A stretch of 61,019 nucleotides of DNA from Caldilineaceae bacterium (GTDB lineage Bacteria; Chloroflexota; Anaerolineae; Caldilineales; Caldilineaceae). Positions 23,284 through 30,011 of the stretch are shown one piece after another. The notes below the pieces were generated by a model, which saw only the letters and a program-made list of their open reading frames with translations, was not told the origin of the DNA and did not search any database. The stretch spans positions 1-61,019 of the forward strand of contig JALSIX010000084.1 of assembly GCA_026989655.1 (NCBI GenBank). The letters are read 5' to 3'. Every line of letters starts with the position of its first letter. The stretch's first letter is position 1. The position numbers and the translations under genes were made by a program.

Positions 23284-23309
23284 ATCCCCGAGCGGAAGGA
23301 GGTATGGCC

Positions 23310-24872
23310 ATGCCACGTGACACCCGACGTCTCACCCTCTGGCTCTCCCTGTTCCTGGTGGCCCTCCTGGCCCTGGCCGGCTGCGCCGCGCCCGCCTCCC
23401 AGCCCCAGGCCGGCCCCGCCCAGGAACAGGCAGCAGAGCCCCCGGCGGAGGTGGCCGCGGACGCCTGCCTGGCCGACGGCACCGTGGTGGTGGGCACCAA
23501 CGCCGAGTACCGACCCTTCGAGTTCGTGGACGAAAACGGCAACATCGTCGGCTTCGACATCGACCTCATGGACGCCCTGGCCCAACGGGCCGGCTTCGAC
23601 GTCCAGTACGTCAACACCAAGTGGGACGGCATCTTCGTCGCCCTGGCCAACGGCGAGTTCGAGGCCGTCATCAGCGCCGTCACCATCACCCCAGAACGCG
23701 CCCAGGTCGTCGACTTCTCCGACCCCTACTTCAACGCCGGACAGGCCATCGCCGTCCGCGCCGACGACAACCGCATCCAGGGACCCGATGACCTCGACGA
23801 AAACATCGTCGTCGGCGTCCAGCTCGGCACCACCGGCGACATCTGGGTCACCGACAACACCAACGCCTCCGTCCAGCGCTTCGAGGAAACACCCCTGGCC
23901 ATCCAGGCCCTGGCCAACGGCGACGTGGATGCCGTGGTCGTCGACGCACCCACCCTGGCCGACTACATCCGCGCCAACCCCGAACTCAACCTCAAGATCG
24001 TCGGCGAACCCTTCACCGACGAACTCTACGGCATCGCCGTCCGCAAGGACTGCCCCAGCCTCCTCCAGGCCATCAACAACGCCCTCGCCCAGGTCCGGCA
24101 GGACGGCACCTACGACCAGATCTTCGACCAGTGGTTCGGCGTCCCCACCGTGGCTGAGGAGCCCCCGGCGGAGGTGGCCGCGGACGCCTGCCTGGCCGAC
24201 GGCACCGTGGTGGTGGGCACCAACGCCGAGTACCGACCCTTCGAGTTCGTGGACGAAAACGGCAACATCGTCGGCTTCGACATCGACCTCATGGACGCCC
24301 TGGCCCAACGGGCCGGCTTCGACGTCCAGTACGTCAACACCAAGTGGGACGGCATCTTCGTCGCCCTGGCCAACGGCGAGTTCGAGGCCGTCATCAGCGC
24401 CGTCACCATCACCCCAGAACGCGCCCAGGTCGTCGACTTCTCCGACCCCTACTTCAACGCCGGACAGGCCATCGCCGTCCGCGCCGACGACAACCGCATC
24501 CAGGGACCCGATGACCTCGACGAAAACATCGTCGTCGGCGTCCAGCTCGGCACCACCGGCGACATCTGGGTCACCGACAACACCAACGCCTCCGTCCAGC
24601 GCTTCGAGGAAACACCCCTGGCCATCCAGGCCCTGGCCAACGGCGACGTGGATGCCGTGGTCGTCGACGCACCCACCCTGGCCGACTACATCCGCGCCAA
24701 CCCCGAACTCAACCTCAAGATCGTCGGCGAACCCTTCACCGACGAACTCTACGGCATCGCCGTCCGCAAGGACTGCCCCAGCCTCCTCCAGGCCATCAAC
24801 AACGCCCTCGCCCAGGTCCGGCAGGACGGCACCTACGACCAGATCTTCGACCAGTGGTTCGGCGTCCAGTGA
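23310..24872 (+). CDS. Amino acid ABC transporter binding lipoprotein with two identical fused SBP domains
   Basis: A 520-residue lipoprotein (signal ending ALAGC, Cys25) with two tandem family 3 solute-binding domains (about 43-283 and 284-520). Each has GTNAEYRPFEFVDENGNIVGFDIDL-type sequence, AVISAVTITPERAQ and QLGTTGDIW, as in HisJ/GlnH-like receptors for polar amino acids. The two halves are encoded by a 709-bp direct repeat that I read as identical base for base, joined by a 14-bp linker. The start is ATG 23310, because the AAGGAGGT site ends directly at an earlier ATG (23304) and is 6 nt from this one. Valine codons inside the repeat are mostly GTC, whereas neighbours favour GTG. The permease follows, but no ATPase gene is nearby. 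Confidence 0.85.
   Translation: MPRDTRRLTLWLSLFLVALLALAGCAAPASQPQAGPAQEQAAEPPAEVAADACLADGTVVVGTNAEYRPFEFVDENGNIVGFDIDLMDALAQRAGFDVQYVNTKWDGIFVALANGEFEAVISAVTITPERAQVVDFSDPYFNAGQAIAVRADDNRIQGPDDLDENIVVGVQLGTTGDIWVTDNTNASVQRFEETPLAIQALANGDVDAVVVDAPTLADYIRANPELNLKIVGEPFTDELYGIAVRKDCPSLLQAINNALAQVRQDGTYDQIFDQWFGVPTVAEEPPAEVAADACLADGTVVVGTNAEYRPFEFVDENGNIVGFDIDLMDALAQRAGFDVQYVNTKWDGIFVALANGEFEAVISAVTITPERAQVVDFSDPYFNAGQAIAVRADDNRIQGPDDLDENIVVGVQLGTTGDIWVTDNTNASVQRFEETPLAIQALANGDVDAVVVDAPTLADYIRANPELNLKIVGEPFTDELYGIAVRKDCPSLLQAINNALAQVRQDGTYDQIFDQWFGVQ
23436..24867 (+). repeat. Perfect 709-bp tandem duplication
   Basis: Unit 1 is 23436-24144 and unit 2 is 24159-24867, offset 723 bp (241 codons), so the frame is kept. 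Reading both copies side by side I found no difference. The 14-bp linker CCCACCGTGGCTGA joins them. Confidence 0.9.
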
Positions 24873-24917: not shown

Positions 24918-24989
24918 CTGGACATGGCATCCCCTCGGGAACGCCCCCTCCTTGGGCGCCCAGGGGTCCGTGAGCGAGAGGGCCGTCCC

Positions 24990-25799
24990 ATGGAGAGCAC
25001 GTACTCCCCTCAACCCTATGCCCCTCCGCCCCCTCCTGGCCAGACCCTGGGCCAGAGGGTGGCGGGCCTTCCCTGGTGGGCCATCATCGTCCTGCTGGTG
25101 GGCGCCTGGATCGCGTTCAACGTCCTGCCGAACCCCATCTACCGGGACGCCTTCGCGGCCATCGCGCCCGGGATCCGGCTCACCCTGACGGTGACCTTCC
25201 AGGCCTATGCCCTGGCCATGGTCATCGGCCTGATCTTCGCGCTCATGCGGGTGAGCAAGAACCCGGTCCTCTACGCCCTCTCCACCCTCTACGTGGAGGT
25301 GATCCGGGGCCTGCCCATGCTGGTCATCGTGCTGTACGCGGGGTACGTCATCGGCCCCGCGGTGCGGGACATGTCCCAGGGCCAGCTGGATCCCCCCATG
25401 TTGGTACGGGCCATCCTGGGGCTGGCCATCGGATACGGGGCCTACCTGGCCGAGATCTTCCGGGCCGGCATCCAGTCCATCGAACGGGGCCAGACCGAGG
25501 CGGCCCTGAGCCTGGGCATGACCTATGCCCAGGCCATGCGGCTGGTGATCCTGCCCCAGGCCATCCGGCGCATTCTGCCGCCCCTGGGGAACGACCTGAT
25601 CGCCATGTTGAAGGACAGCTCCCTGATCGCGATCCTGGCCGTGCCCGAGACCCTACAGCTCGGCCGGCTCTTCATCAGCCGGAGCTTCCGGGCCTTCGAG
25701 GGGTACAACTCCGTGGCCCTGGCCTTTCTGGCCATGACCCTGGTCCTCTCCTTCGGCGTCCGCTACATGGAGCGCCGCCTGGGCGTGGGCGGCCACTGA
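24990..25799 (+). CDS. Amino acid ABC transporter permease (HisM/GlnP type)
   Basis: A 269-residue inner-membrane permease. After a Pro-rich cytoplasmic start (YAPPPPPGQTLG) come about five to six hydrophobic segments. LTLTVTFQAYALAMVIGL marks the polar amino acid permease family, and EIFRAGIQSIERGQTEAALS is the ATPase-coupling EAA loop. ATG 24990 was chosen as the end of the upstream low-homology stretch; its ribosome site is weak. It should work with the duplicated binding protein just upstream. Only one permease gene is seen, so a homodimer is likely. The ATPase must come from elsewhere in the genome. Confidence 0.87.
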   Translation: MESTYSPQPYAPPPPPGQTLGQRVAGLPWWAIIVLLVGAWIAFNVLPNPIYRDAFAAIAPGIRLTLTVTFQAYALAMVIGLIFALMRVSKNPVLYALSTLYVEVIRGLPMLVIVLYAGYVIGPAVRDMSQGQLDPPMLVRAILGLAIGYGAYLAEIFRAGIQSIERGQTEAALSLGMTYAQAMRLVILPQAIRRILPPLGNDLIAMLKDSSLIAILAVPETLQLGRLFISRSFRAFEGYNSVALAFLAMTLVLSFGVRYMERRLGVGGH

Positions 25800-25829: not shown

Positions 25830-26474
25830 ATGGAGAACCTCTTCCCTGTGCTGGGCGCCCTGCTGGGCTACCTGTTGGGCTCCGTGCCCGTCGGCCTGGT
25901 GGTCTGTCGGCTCTACGGAGTGGACATCCGCCAGGTGGGCAGCGGCCGGATCGGCGGCACCAATGCCTGGCGGGCCGCGGGGCTGAAGGCCGCGGTGCCC
26001 ACCATCCTGGGCGACGCGGCCAAGGGCGCGGTGGCCATCTGGATCGTCCGAGGGCTGGCCGGCGCCCTGCTGGATCCCGCGGCGCCCTCCACGCCCACCC
26101 TCCAGGCCCTGGCCGAGGCCCTGGCGGCCGGCGCGGCGGTCTGGGGACACAACTGGCCGGTGTTCCTCGGCTTTCGCGGCGGGGCCGGGGGGATCACCGC
26201 GGCCGCGACCGCCATGGCCCTGACCCCACTGGTGGGCGGGCTGGTCTGGCTCGTGGGTGGGCTGCTGATCGGGTGGAGCCGCATCGCCTCGGTGGGCACC
26301 TTCGCGGTGGGCTCCACCGCCCTGGCAGCCACCCTGGTGCTGGCCCTGGACGGCCGCATCCCCTGGCCCTACCTGCTGTTCGGGGCCATGGCCCTGGCAG
26401 GGATCGCCCTGGCCCTGCGCCCCAACCGCGAGCGGCTCCGCCAGAACCAGGAACGGATCATCACCCTCTGGTGA
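25830..26474 (+). CDS. PlsY-like acyl-phosphate:glycerol-3-phosphate acyltransferase
   Basis: A 214-residue membrane protein with about five to seven hydrophobic segments and the PlsY layout: LLGSVPVGLVVCRLYG at the N-terminus, GSGRIGGTNAWRAAG (motif 1 region), and WGHNWPVFLGFRGGAGG (motif 2/3 region). PlsY transfers acyl groups from acyl-phosphate to glycerol-3-phosphate, the first step of phospholipid synthesis. Two changes stand out. The usual GSGNxGATN is GSGRIGGTN, and the usual FKGGKG is FRGGAG, which loses a conserved lysine. It may be a paralogue with altered activity. It precedes the glycerol cluster, which handles the same metabolite, but has its own terminator hairpin. Confidence 0.7.
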   Translation: MENLFPVLGALLGYLLGSVPVGLVVCRLYGVDIRQVGSGRIGGTNAWRAAGLKAAVPTILGDAAKGAVAIWIVRGLAGALLDPAAPSTPTLQALAEALAAGAAVWGHNWPVFLGFRGGAGGITAAATAMALTPLVGGLVWLVGGLLIGWSRIASVGTFAVGSTALAATLVLALDGRIPWPYLLFGAMALAGIALALRPNRERLRQNQERIITLW

Positions 26475-26475
26475 A

Positions 26476-26496
26476 CCGCCCGGTTTTCCCGGGCGG
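26476..26496 (+). terminator. Hairpin directly after plsY-like gene
   Basis: CCGCCCGG (26476-26483) and CCGGGCGG (26489-26496) pair perfectly around a TTTTC loop, starting 2 nt after the stop codon. No T-run follows. Confidence 0.55.
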
Positions 26497-26663
26497 CCCT
26501 CTCCCTGGACATCGCCCAACCGTTCTCCATCCACCAGAGCCCAGGGCCGATCACCGTGGGGGATACGGGACGTGCCTGGGGCATCTGGAGGGAAGCGCCG
26601 GATGCCCGACGTCCGGCCGCGGCCTGATCCCGTCTCCAGCCTGGGGCCAGTCCTCCCATCCCG

Positions 26664-26692
26664 TTGTCGAAAACACCGAAACCGATTACAAT
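26664..26692 (+). promoter_or_regulatory. Sigma70 promoter for the dha/glp cluster, placed for a leaderless mRNA
   Basis: TTGTCG (26664-26669), 17-bp spacer, TACAAT (26687-26692). The dhaK ATG begins at 26700, only 7 nt past the -10, exactly where transcription should start. No ribosome-binding site precedes the ATG. Confidence 0.6.
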
Positions 26693-26699
26693 AGCAGCC

Positions 26700-27683
26700 A
26701 TGAGCGGCGTTGCCCTTGCCCCAGGTCGTTCCATCACCGCCAGCCTGGAAGGCATGGTCCTGGCCTATCCCGACCTCCTGCAGTTCCACCGGGACCCAGA
26801 CTACGTGGCCTGGGCCGTTCCCCCGACCGAGGAGAAGGTGGCCGTCATCAGCGGCAGCGGCAGCGGCCACGAGCCCCTGCCGGTGGGCTACGTGGGGCCG
26901 GGGATGCTGGATGCGGCCTGTCCGGGCCGGGTGTTCACCAGCCCATCGCCGGTCCAGTTGGTGGCCGCCACCCGGGCCGTGGCCCAGGAGGCCGGGGCCG
27001 TGTACGTGGTCAAGAACTACGCCGGAGGCGTGATGACCGCGGAGATGGCCCTGGACCTGCTGGGGGACGAGGCCATCCCGGTGCGGACGGTGTTGGTCAA
27101 CGACGATGTGGCCATCCCCGATCCGGCACGGCGCCGGGGGTTGGGGGCCGCGGTGCTGGCCAGCAAGATCGCAGGGGCAGCGGCTCAGGCCGGCCTGCCC
27201 CTGGACCAGGTGGCCGACCTGGCGGAGCGGATGGTCCAGAACACCCGGAGCCTGGGCGTGGCCACAGACGCCTGTACCCTGGCCCGAGCGGGCATCCGGG
27301 AACCCCTGCCCCCGGACCAGGTGGAGTGGGGTGTGGGGATCCACGGGGAGCCCGGCCAGGTCCGTCCCCTGCCCAAGGACCCGGTGCTTCTCCTGGAGGA
27401 GATGGCCGAGGCCCTGCGGGCGGATCTGGAGCTCCGTCCCGGCGAGCCCTTGCTCCTCATGTTGAGCAGCCTGGGCGGCACCCCCCAGGCCGAACTGTAC
27501 TGGGCCTTCCGCCACCTGCACCGCACACTCCAGGCCATGGGGCTTTCCATCGCCCGCCACCTGGTGGGCACCTTCATCACCTGCCTGGGCCGTGGGGGCT
27601 GGATCGCCACCCTGGCCCGGATGGACGGCCAACTGTTGGAGTTGTGGGACGCGCCGGTGCATACCCCGGTGCTCCACTGGTGA
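26700..27683 (+). CDS. dhaK: PEP-dependent dihydroxyacetone kinase, substrate-binding subunit DhaK
   Basis: Binds dihydroxyacetone covalently and presents it for phosphorylation by DhaL. The 327-residue length matches E. coli DhaK. Motifs: VISGSGSGHEPLPVGYVGPGM near 49, KNYAGGVMTAEMA near 105, and GVGIHGEPG at 211-219, whose His215 would form the hemiaminal with the substrate. The ATG at 26700 coincides with the predicted transcription start and has no Shine-Dalgarno, so translation is probably leaderless. A TTG at 26664 in the same frame lies inside the promoter and is not used. First gene of a nine-gene cluster. Confidence 0.93.
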   Translation: MSGVALAPGRSITASLEGMVLAYPDLLQFHRDPDYVAWAVPPTEEKVAVISGSGSGHEPLPVGYVGPGMLDAACPGRVFTSPSPVQLVAATRAVAQEAGAVYVVKNYAGGVMTAEMALDLLGDEAIPVRTVLVNDDVAIPDPARRRGLGAAVLASKIAGAAAQAGLPLDQVADLAERMVQNTRSLGVATDACTLARAGIREPLPPDQVEWGVGIHGEPGQVRPLPKDPVLLLEEMAEALRADLELRPGEPLLLMLSSLGGTPQAELYWAFRHLHRTLQAMGLSIARHLVGTFITCLGRGGWIATLARMDGQLLELWDAPVHTPVLHW

Positions 27684-27741
27684 TCTGCGGGCGGGTCGAA
27701 CCGGCTCCGCCCCCTGTCGGCAACGAGGAGAACCGCATACC

Positions 27742-28449
27742 ATGGGCCAGCAAAACGGCCAGGCAGGCAACGGCCAGGCCATCTCCGTGGAACAGATCCG
27801 CCGCTGGCTCCTTGCCTACGCGCACCGGATCATCGAACAGGAGGAGTACCTGACCGCCCTGGACGCGGACATCGGCGACGCCGACCACGGCACCAACATG
27901 CGCCGCGGTCTGGAGAAGGTGAAGGAACGGCTGGAGGATCCCGACTGCCCCTGCAACAGCGTGGGCAGCCTGCTCCGCTCCGTGGCCATGACCCTGATCA
28001 GCGCGGTGGGCGGCGCGGCCGGACCCCTGTACGGCACCTTCTTCCTCCGGGCCGCGACGAGCTGCAACAACAGCCCGGCCATCACCCCGGCCCAGTTCGC
28101 CGCCATGTTGCGCCAGGGATTGGAGGGCGTGAAACAACGGGGCAAGGCCCACCTGGACGACAAGACCATGGTGGATTCCATCCAGCCCGCGGTGGAGGCC
28201 CTGGAGGCGGCCATCGGACAACACAAGGACCTGCGCCAGGCCCTGCACGAGGCCGCGGAGGCCGCCCGCCGGGGCATGGAGCACACGGCCGAGATCCCGG
28301 CCCGCAAGGGCCGAGCCAGCTACCTGGGCCCCCGCTCCATCGGCCACCAGGACCCAGGGGCCACCAGCGCCTACTATCTCTTCGAGACCGCGGCCCAGGT
28401 CCTGGCCACGCCCGCCCACCGACGGGAGAGCCCGTCCCGACACCGCTGA
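27742..28449 (+). CDS. dhaL: PEP-dependent dihydroxyacetone kinase, ADP-binding subunit DhaL
   Basis: Carries a tightly bound ADP that is phosphorylated by DhaM and then donates to dihydroxyacetone on DhaK. The 235-residue protein has [18 protein letters not shown] (metal/nucleotide Asp cluster), [16 protein letters not shown], and [20 protein letters not shown] near the C-terminus, all diagnostic of DhaL. The N-terminus has a short Gln/Gly-rich extension. It starts 59 bp after dhaK, with GAGGAG about 11 nt upstream of the ATG. Confidence 0.93.
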
Positions 28450-28493
28450 CCCACCGCGACCACCACCCGCCCAGCACCAGGAGGAAGCCTCCC

Positions 28494-30011
28494 ATGGCCA
28501 AGTACGTGGGCGCTATCGACTCCGGCACCACCAGCACCCGCTTCATGCTCTTCGACCGCTCGGGCGCCATCGTGGCCTACGACCAGCGGGAACATCGACA
28601 GATCTTCCCCCAGAGCGGCTGGGTCGAACACGATCCCCAGGAGATCTGGGAGCGGACCCAACAGGTGATCGCCACCACCCTGGACAAGGCCGACGTCCGC
28701 CCCGAGGAGATCGCGGCCATCGGCGTGACCAACCAACGGGAGACCACCATCCTGTGGGACCGGACCACAGGGGAGCCCATCCACAACGCCATCGTCTGGC
28801 AGGACACCCGTACCGCGGCCCTCTGCCGAGAGCTGGAGGCGGCCGGCCACGGTCCCCTGTTCCATCGCCGTACCGGCCTCCCCCTGGCCACCTACTTCTC
28901 CGGCCCCAAGATCCGATGGCTCCTGGACCATGTGCCCGGTGCTCGGCAGCGGGCCGAGGCCGGAGAGCTCCTCTTCGGCACGGTGGACACCTGGCTCATC
29001 TGGCAGCTCACCGGCGGCCAGCATGTCACAGACCCCACCAATGCCAGTCGCACCATGCTCATGGACCTGGCGAGCCTCCAGTGGGACTCGGAGCTCCTGG
29101 CCATCCTGGGCGTGCCGCAGAGCCTCCTGCCCACCATCCGTCCCAGCAGTGATCCCGAGCTCTACGGCACCACCCGACCGGATGGCCCCTTCGGAGGCGA
29201 GATCCCGGTCTGCGGCGACCTGGGCGACCAACAGGCGGCCACCGTGGGCCAGGCCTGCTTCAGCCCCGGCGAGGCCAAGAACACCTACGGCACCGGCTGC
29301 TTCATGCTCCTGAACACCGGCACCGAGATCGTCCACAGCCGCAACGGCCTGCTCACCACCGTCTGCTACCAGATGGGCCAGGGGCCGGCCGTCTACGCCC
29401 TGGAGGGCTCCATCGCCATGGCCGGCGCCACCGTCCAGTGGCTCCGGGACAACCTGGGCCTGATCCGCCACGCCGCGGAGACCGAGGAGATCGCCCAGAG
29501 CGTGCCCGACACGGGCGGCTGCTACTTCGTCCCGGCCTTCAGCGGCCTCTTTGCCCCCTACTGGCGCAGCGACGCCCGGGGAGTCATCGTGGGCCTCACC
29601 CGCTACACGAACCGAGCCCACCTGGTCCGGGCCGCGCTGGAGGCCATCTGCTACCAGACCCGAGAGGTATTGGACGCCATGCACGCGGACAGCGGCGTCC
29701 GCCTGAAGGCCCTGAAGGTGGACGGCGGAGCCACCGTGAACAACTTCCTGATGCAGCTCCAGGCCGACATCCTGGGCGCCGAGGTGATCCGCCCCCAGGT
29801 GGCCGAGACCACCAGCCTGGGCGCGGCCTACGCGGCCGGCCTGGCCGTGGGCTTCTGGCAGGACCTGGAGAGCCTCCGGCACCACTGGAAGGCCGATCGC
29901 CGCTGGCAGCCCCAGATCTCCGAGCGACAACGGGCCGCGGGCTACCGGGGATGGAAGCGGGCCGTGGAACGCAGCTTCGGTTGGGCCGAGGAGGAACCGT
30001 CCGCGCCGTGA
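28494..30011 (+). CDS. glpK: Glycerol kinase
   Basis: Phosphorylates glycerol to sn-glycerol-3-phosphate with ATP. The 505-residue protein has [15 protein letters not shown] phosphate-1 loop, ITNQRET-type TNQRETT, GDQQAA, and the C-terminal [14 protein letters not shown] adenosine motif. In low-GC Gram-positives HPr activates GlpK by phosphorylating a His in a YHFYGGE-like loop. Here the equivalent reads [12 protein letters not shown], with Gly at the His position, so that control appears to be absent even though an HPr/EI pair is encoded in the same cluster. The stop overlaps the next gene as GTGA. Confidence 0.95.

Follow-up and report, generated by a model that had tools for sequence, protein, structure and literature searches.

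A tandem amino acid receptor gene with two identical domains in a Caldilineaceae bacterium, and homogenised twin receptors across the Anaerolineae

Here, we describe an amino acid receptor gene from a Caldilineaceae bacterium that carries two copies of its receptor domain with the same DNA sequence, within a contiguous stretch of 61,019 nucleotides (hereafter, the window). The best explanation, which we hold to be likely, is a real tandem duplication that gave rise to a lipid-anchored protein with two identical receptors, i.e., equal capture sites, that were recently reset to identity by recombination or are the product of a fresh duplication. The larger finding is a class-wide set of homogenised twin receptors, in which many copy pairs are more alike than their nearest orthologues.

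The gene, encoding a tandem substrate-binding lipoprotein of 522 aa, occupies a single open reading frame on the forward strand (23304-24872). Its first stretch (23304-23384, +) reads as a signal peptide with the lipobox LAGC, corresponding to a helix at residues 5-24 of the structural model, and Cys27 is the presumed lipidation site. Repeat copy 1 (23436-24144, +; receptor domain 1) and repeat copy 2 (24159-24867, +; receptor domain 2) match over 709 of 709 bp with 0 mismatches at an offset of 723 bp, the longest exact match at that offset, and the two encoded domains are identical at 236 of 236 residues. Both copies are in frame, as the initial annotation had stated in describing two copies without a base difference, 723 bp apart, inside one lipoprotein gene. 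The identity ends abruptly, with the flanks diverging at once on both sides. Between the copies lies a 14-bp spacer, CCACCGTGGCTGAG (24145-24158, +), which is unique, has no match beside either copy and forms part of the flexible inter-domain linker. No further copy of the repeat unit was found elsewhere in the window's genome, and an exact DNA pattern from the unit had no match in the wider genome-contig collection. In 2000 synonymous redraws from the unit's own codon bias, third positions agreed at about 0.79 (0.86 at most), as opposed to the observed 1.00; codon bias therefore cannot account for the identical copies.

Exact identity of two units in a draft assembly of 150 contigs is also what an assembly artefact would produce, i.e., a genome with one unit to which the assembler added a second. 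The initial annotation had listed such an artefact next to recent origin and gene conversion. We consider it very unlikely. The unique spacer is in frame and flanked by the unit on each side, an arrangement that a single unit cannot supply, and the assembly graph must therefore have held unit, spacer and unit in succession. Furthermore, the 709-bp pair is the sole exact direct repeat of at least 40 bp in the 61-kb window, and 67 similar tandems exist in the class (see below), including five in single-contig genomes (G031, G310, G389, G343 and G066). The tandem appears to be a genuine design that recurs, not an error of sequencing, and the number of repeats in the cell may be above the two that were assembled. 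Elsewhere in this assembly, contigs C35 and C58 of genome G000 (loci L216 and L217) both end inside a tuf gene, coding elongation factor Tu; the assembly seems to be broken there by the two copies of tuf, the assembler stopping at that repeat.

The SBP_bac_3 profile (Pfam PF00497) matches two stretches of the protein (E = 1.3e-93; 310 bits, with a cut-off of 26.4), placing it in this family, and the protein also scores above the NCBIfam TIGR01096 cut-off, with a score that is the sum over the two domains. The AlphaFold model contains two complete lobed domains (pLDDT 84, pTM 0.47) and a linker with pLDDT below 50 at residues 281-293; the low pTM probably reflects an undefined relative orientation of the two domains in the model. 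Each domain resembles the arginine receptor ArgBP of T. maritima, ArtJ, GlnH and the reconstructed AncQR, and the closest single-domain structures to the model include AncQR bound to Gln or Arg (47% identity). The Arg and Asp positions that we take to form the SBP_bac_3 amino acid clamp are occupied in 142 of 142 domains (Arg) and 141 of 142 (Asp), and each window copy holds both residues. By homology, arginine- or glutamine-like ligands would be the best fit for this receptor.

Ligand pockets are conserved in general. At 14 presumed pocket positions, which we placed approximately after the LAO-binding protein, the copies differ in 20 of 907 cells (2.2%) vs. 11.4% elsewhere across 65 pairs. 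Because presumed pocket residues rarely differ between copies, the pair most likely represents one receptor doubled rather than the addition of a second specificity. Two receptors of differing specificity, similar to GlnPQ, would share the tandem architecture, and the GlnPQ SBD1-SBD2 tandem (6h30) is indeed the nearest solved structure to the model, followed by BvgS; in a few relatives (e.g., G022, G010 and G219), copies that are 63-71% alike do differ at presumed pocket positions. However, the window domains are identical in sequence, and across the 65 pairs divergence is lower in the presumed pocket than in the remainder of the domain, which leaves differing specificity in the window protein barely credible.

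The codon choice of the unit had been described as GTC-rich and unlike its neighbours, and codon analysis agrees: GTC makes up 0.74 of Val codons in the unit vs. 0.31 elsewhere in the window. The unit strongly prefers C-ending codons and is an outlier within the window, its codon distance (0.218) exceeding that of all 65 length-matched windows from other window genes. It has no resemblance in codon use to the ribosomal-protein region, which we used as an expression signal. Transfer was first proposed from codon choice; recent horizontal transfer from a genome that favours C-ending codons would fit both the distance and the unlikeness to the ribosomal-protein region. Nonetheless, receptor genes are more C-ending than their permease and ATPase genes in 32 of 35 related tandem operons, the contrast in G343 (0.92 vs. 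0.52) is as extreme as in the window (0.88 vs. 0.51), and the nearest clade of the window receptor consists of same-family genomes. Since receptor genes generally lean towards C-ending codons, transfer is not needed to explain the bias; the argument from codon use appears weak, and we regard transfer as unlikely.

Loci with tandem receptors were collected from 396 genomes of the class and 60 relatives. The class holds 67 tandem-SBP proteins in 65 genomes, spanning 13 families and 35 genera. Outside the class, the phylum sample gave single-domain matches, and the non-Chloroflexota loci from the genome-contig scan were single-domain too. Copy identity across the tandem set has a median of 93% at the amino acid level and 79.5% at third positions, and reaches at least 0.97 at third positions in six proteins, one of which is from a single-contig genome. 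Identical domains occur in the window and in G342, whereas one codon differs in each of G238 and G256:C57, four in G345 and five in G343. In 38 of 65 cases, the copies are closer to each other in protein sequence than to their nearest orthologues. The set splits in two, with one group resembling the window protein and a second, larger group. We found no description of tandem receptors, or of their conversion, in Chloroflexota in the open-access literature.

Receptor architecture varies further within these genomes. An 820-aa reading frame in G165 (L102) carries three SBP_bac_3 domains, the first two being 95% alike and the third about 80%, and G235 (L110) has two such domains plus the end of a third, truncated where the contig stops. 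The domains of G283 (L111) show no amino acid difference in the compared stretch, yet 50 synonymous codon differences. A diverged tandem receptor (54%) in G010:C598 (L105) has a C-terminal tail that is LysM-like by eye. G218 (L114:1262-3703) encodes three receptors per chain, i.e., Peripla_BP_6 and then a pair of SBP_bac_3 copies (91% alike). Fusions of SBP_bac_3 with a peptide-type SBP_bac_5 receptor, of ~800 aa, are common in the class (L125:3073-5532, L123:1494-4103, L009, L011, L013 and L018); in L125, two BPD_transp_1 permeases come after the fusion gene, and one of them includes an OppC_N domain. Finally, L155:1-1761 and L184:2713-4998 join an SBP_bac_3 module to a PnrA/Bmp-type receptor, with either of the two coming first.

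Second-group linkers from families f1, f15, f21 and f31 agree in length and motif (246-aa spacing; WFFLTDPN..DIYD..LPDLGG), and in most of these the ends of the first and second domains (D1 and D2) are position-specific (WFFLT vs. WFF.YDP). As domain ends and linker are shared by position across families, the tandem is old in this group. Despite that, D1 and D2 of G310, G033 and G024 share 0.83-0.93 of third positions within the protein vs. 0.56-0.62 with the nearest orthologous domains. Two genera of the window's own family illustrate the pattern. In f1g8 (11 species), a tree of the domain core joins D1 to its own species' D2 in 7 of 11 cases (support 0.95-1.0), whereas the tree of the last 35 codons gathers every D1 in one clade (0.956) and every D2 in another (0.878). 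In f1g6, the core gives this same-species pairing in 4 of 4, and the last 35 codons again place D1 and D2 fully apart. Independent duplication in each species would not leave the ends agreeing by position; the trees show the mark of gene conversion, or conversion-like exchange, acting on an old tandem.

Identical tracts between diverged ends extend over 185 codons in G027, 129 in G319 and 173 in G048 (P = 0.0005 each), and a 217-codon tract in G004 reaches one diverged end (P = 0.0005). In a shuffle test that takes constraint as even along the domain, tracts are longer than expected (P < 0.01) in 15 of 66 proteins; because constraint may be uneven, we give the trees more weight than the tract test. 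Concerted evolution, in which the copies of an old arrangement resemble one another more than their orthologues, is thus found in f1g8 and f1g6 and, in part, in f20g141. Copies in f1g2 and in part of f20g141 are 63-72% alike and not homogenised. At equal synonymous divergence, the copies were no more alike in protein than orthologues, indicating ordinary constraint with no sign of extra selection for identity. Copy identity correlates weakly with C-bias and more strongly with GC3 (rho = 0.54). It is conceivable, though we hold it to be doubtful, that self-homogenising tandem receptors in Anaerolineae are a standing device, in which recombination that continues between the in-frame copies keeps the twins identical and shifts the number of receptors per anchor among one, two and three, thereby tuning capture capacity with specificity unchanged.

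The initial annotation had proposed a search for single-copy orthologues; in the tree of the window's subfamily, the window domains are sister to the single-copy receptors L125 and L126 of the same family (support 0.992). The subfamily is mostly single-copy and often fused to an SBP_bac_5 receptor; five or more other branches carry tandems (G052, G256, L144, L154 and L158), which in this subfamily probably arose repeatedly among single-copy relatives. No congeneric genome that would give positional markers for the window pair was found. Given single-copy sister lineages and no congener, recent duplication and recent conversion fit the window pair equally well. Of the origins first suggested, these two are therefore retained, conversion being demonstrated in same-family relatives. 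A stricter version, in which the pair is a fresh duplication only, a new and unstable event in one strain with no upkeep by selection or conversion, is in our judgement somewhat less probable than its opposite. The 0 differences in 709 bp, the single-copy sister clade and the scatter of subfamily tandems among single-copy relatives speak for it. However, a clean event leaves a perfect 723-bp period, while the 14-bp spacer matches beside neither copy, and near-identical tandems of similar kind recur in 13 families. An unmatched spacer and abrupt ends are as seen in old homogenised tandems, although duplication with a 14-bp insertion would look alike.

Downstream of the receptor gene, a separate gene (24924-25799, +) encodes an amino acid ABC transporter permease of the BPD_transp_1 family, GlnP/EhuD-like by profile matches and, by its position, the presumed partner. 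Receptor and family permease adjoin, as is typical of a polar amino acid ABC importer operon, and the view of a tethered receptor pair beside one permease is upheld by two SBP_bac_3 domains in one lipoprotein. Most tandem receptors in related genomes likewise have the permease next in line. No ATPase gene lies adjacent to the window's receptor and permease. In the relative G052, receptor, permease and ATPase are consecutive, and the best match to that ATPase in the window's genome lies on contig C132 (G000:C132:27503-28228; 65% identity), adjoining genes that read by eye as permease-like; this candidate may power the window permease. The genes after the transporter (25830-30011) are glycerol-related, namely G3P acyltransferase and DhaK, with DhaL and glycerol kinase read by eye.

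Considering the above, we propose that tandem duplication inside an amino acid receptor gene produced a protein, held by one lipid anchor, in which a flexible linker connects two identical Venus-flytrap receptors, and whose copies were recently reset to identity by recombination (gene conversion or unequal crossing-over) or by fresh duplication. Each anchored protein would hold a pair of equivalent sites for capturing one and the same amino acid near one permease, which is the simplest function of the pair, and the permease would draw on an ATPase encoded elsewhere, the C132 gene being a candidate. We infer that the doubled receptor might confer higher capture capacity or quicker delivery.

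Several known systems offer partial parallels. Stand-alone family-3 receptors (T. maritima ArgBP, ArtJ, GlnH and AncQR) share the fold and the conserved amino acid clamp; the ArtJ, ArgBP and AncQR structures are 39-47% identical to the window domains but consist of a single domain. The sensor kinases BvgS and EvgS (PDB 4q0c and 9ilw) also have two Venus-flytrap domains in a row, whereas the window protein lacks a kinase part and is a lipoprotein beside a permease. In OpuA-type importers, as in the window protein, two identical receptor domains per transporter are covalently held near the permease, and for OpuA the concentration that such anchored domains experience of each other around a single permease has been estimated as millimolar (PMC11065425); there, however, one domain comes from each of two permease-fused protomers, while here both belong to one separate lipoprotein chain. 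The Firmicute parallel drawn initially, for which we take GlnPQ of Lactococcus lactis, holds in principle: two family-3 receptor domains per chain, with a short flexible linker, serve an amino acid ABC importer, and in GlnPQ these two domains work for the most part independently of each other (PMC8025302). It does not hold in detail, as the SBD1 and SBD2 domains of GlnPQ differ in sequence, take different ligands and share a chain with the permease (PMC8025302; PDB 6h30), whereas those of the window are identical and belong to a lipoprotein distinct from the permease. Conversion tracts inside single genes provide a way to study intragenic conversion acting on protein domains, and twin receptors are a natural system for asking what identical receptor doubling buys an ABC importer. 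While the studied tandem pair, GlnPQ, joins two specificities to a permease, the class instead presents the same apparent specificity twice on one lipid anchor, in many genera.
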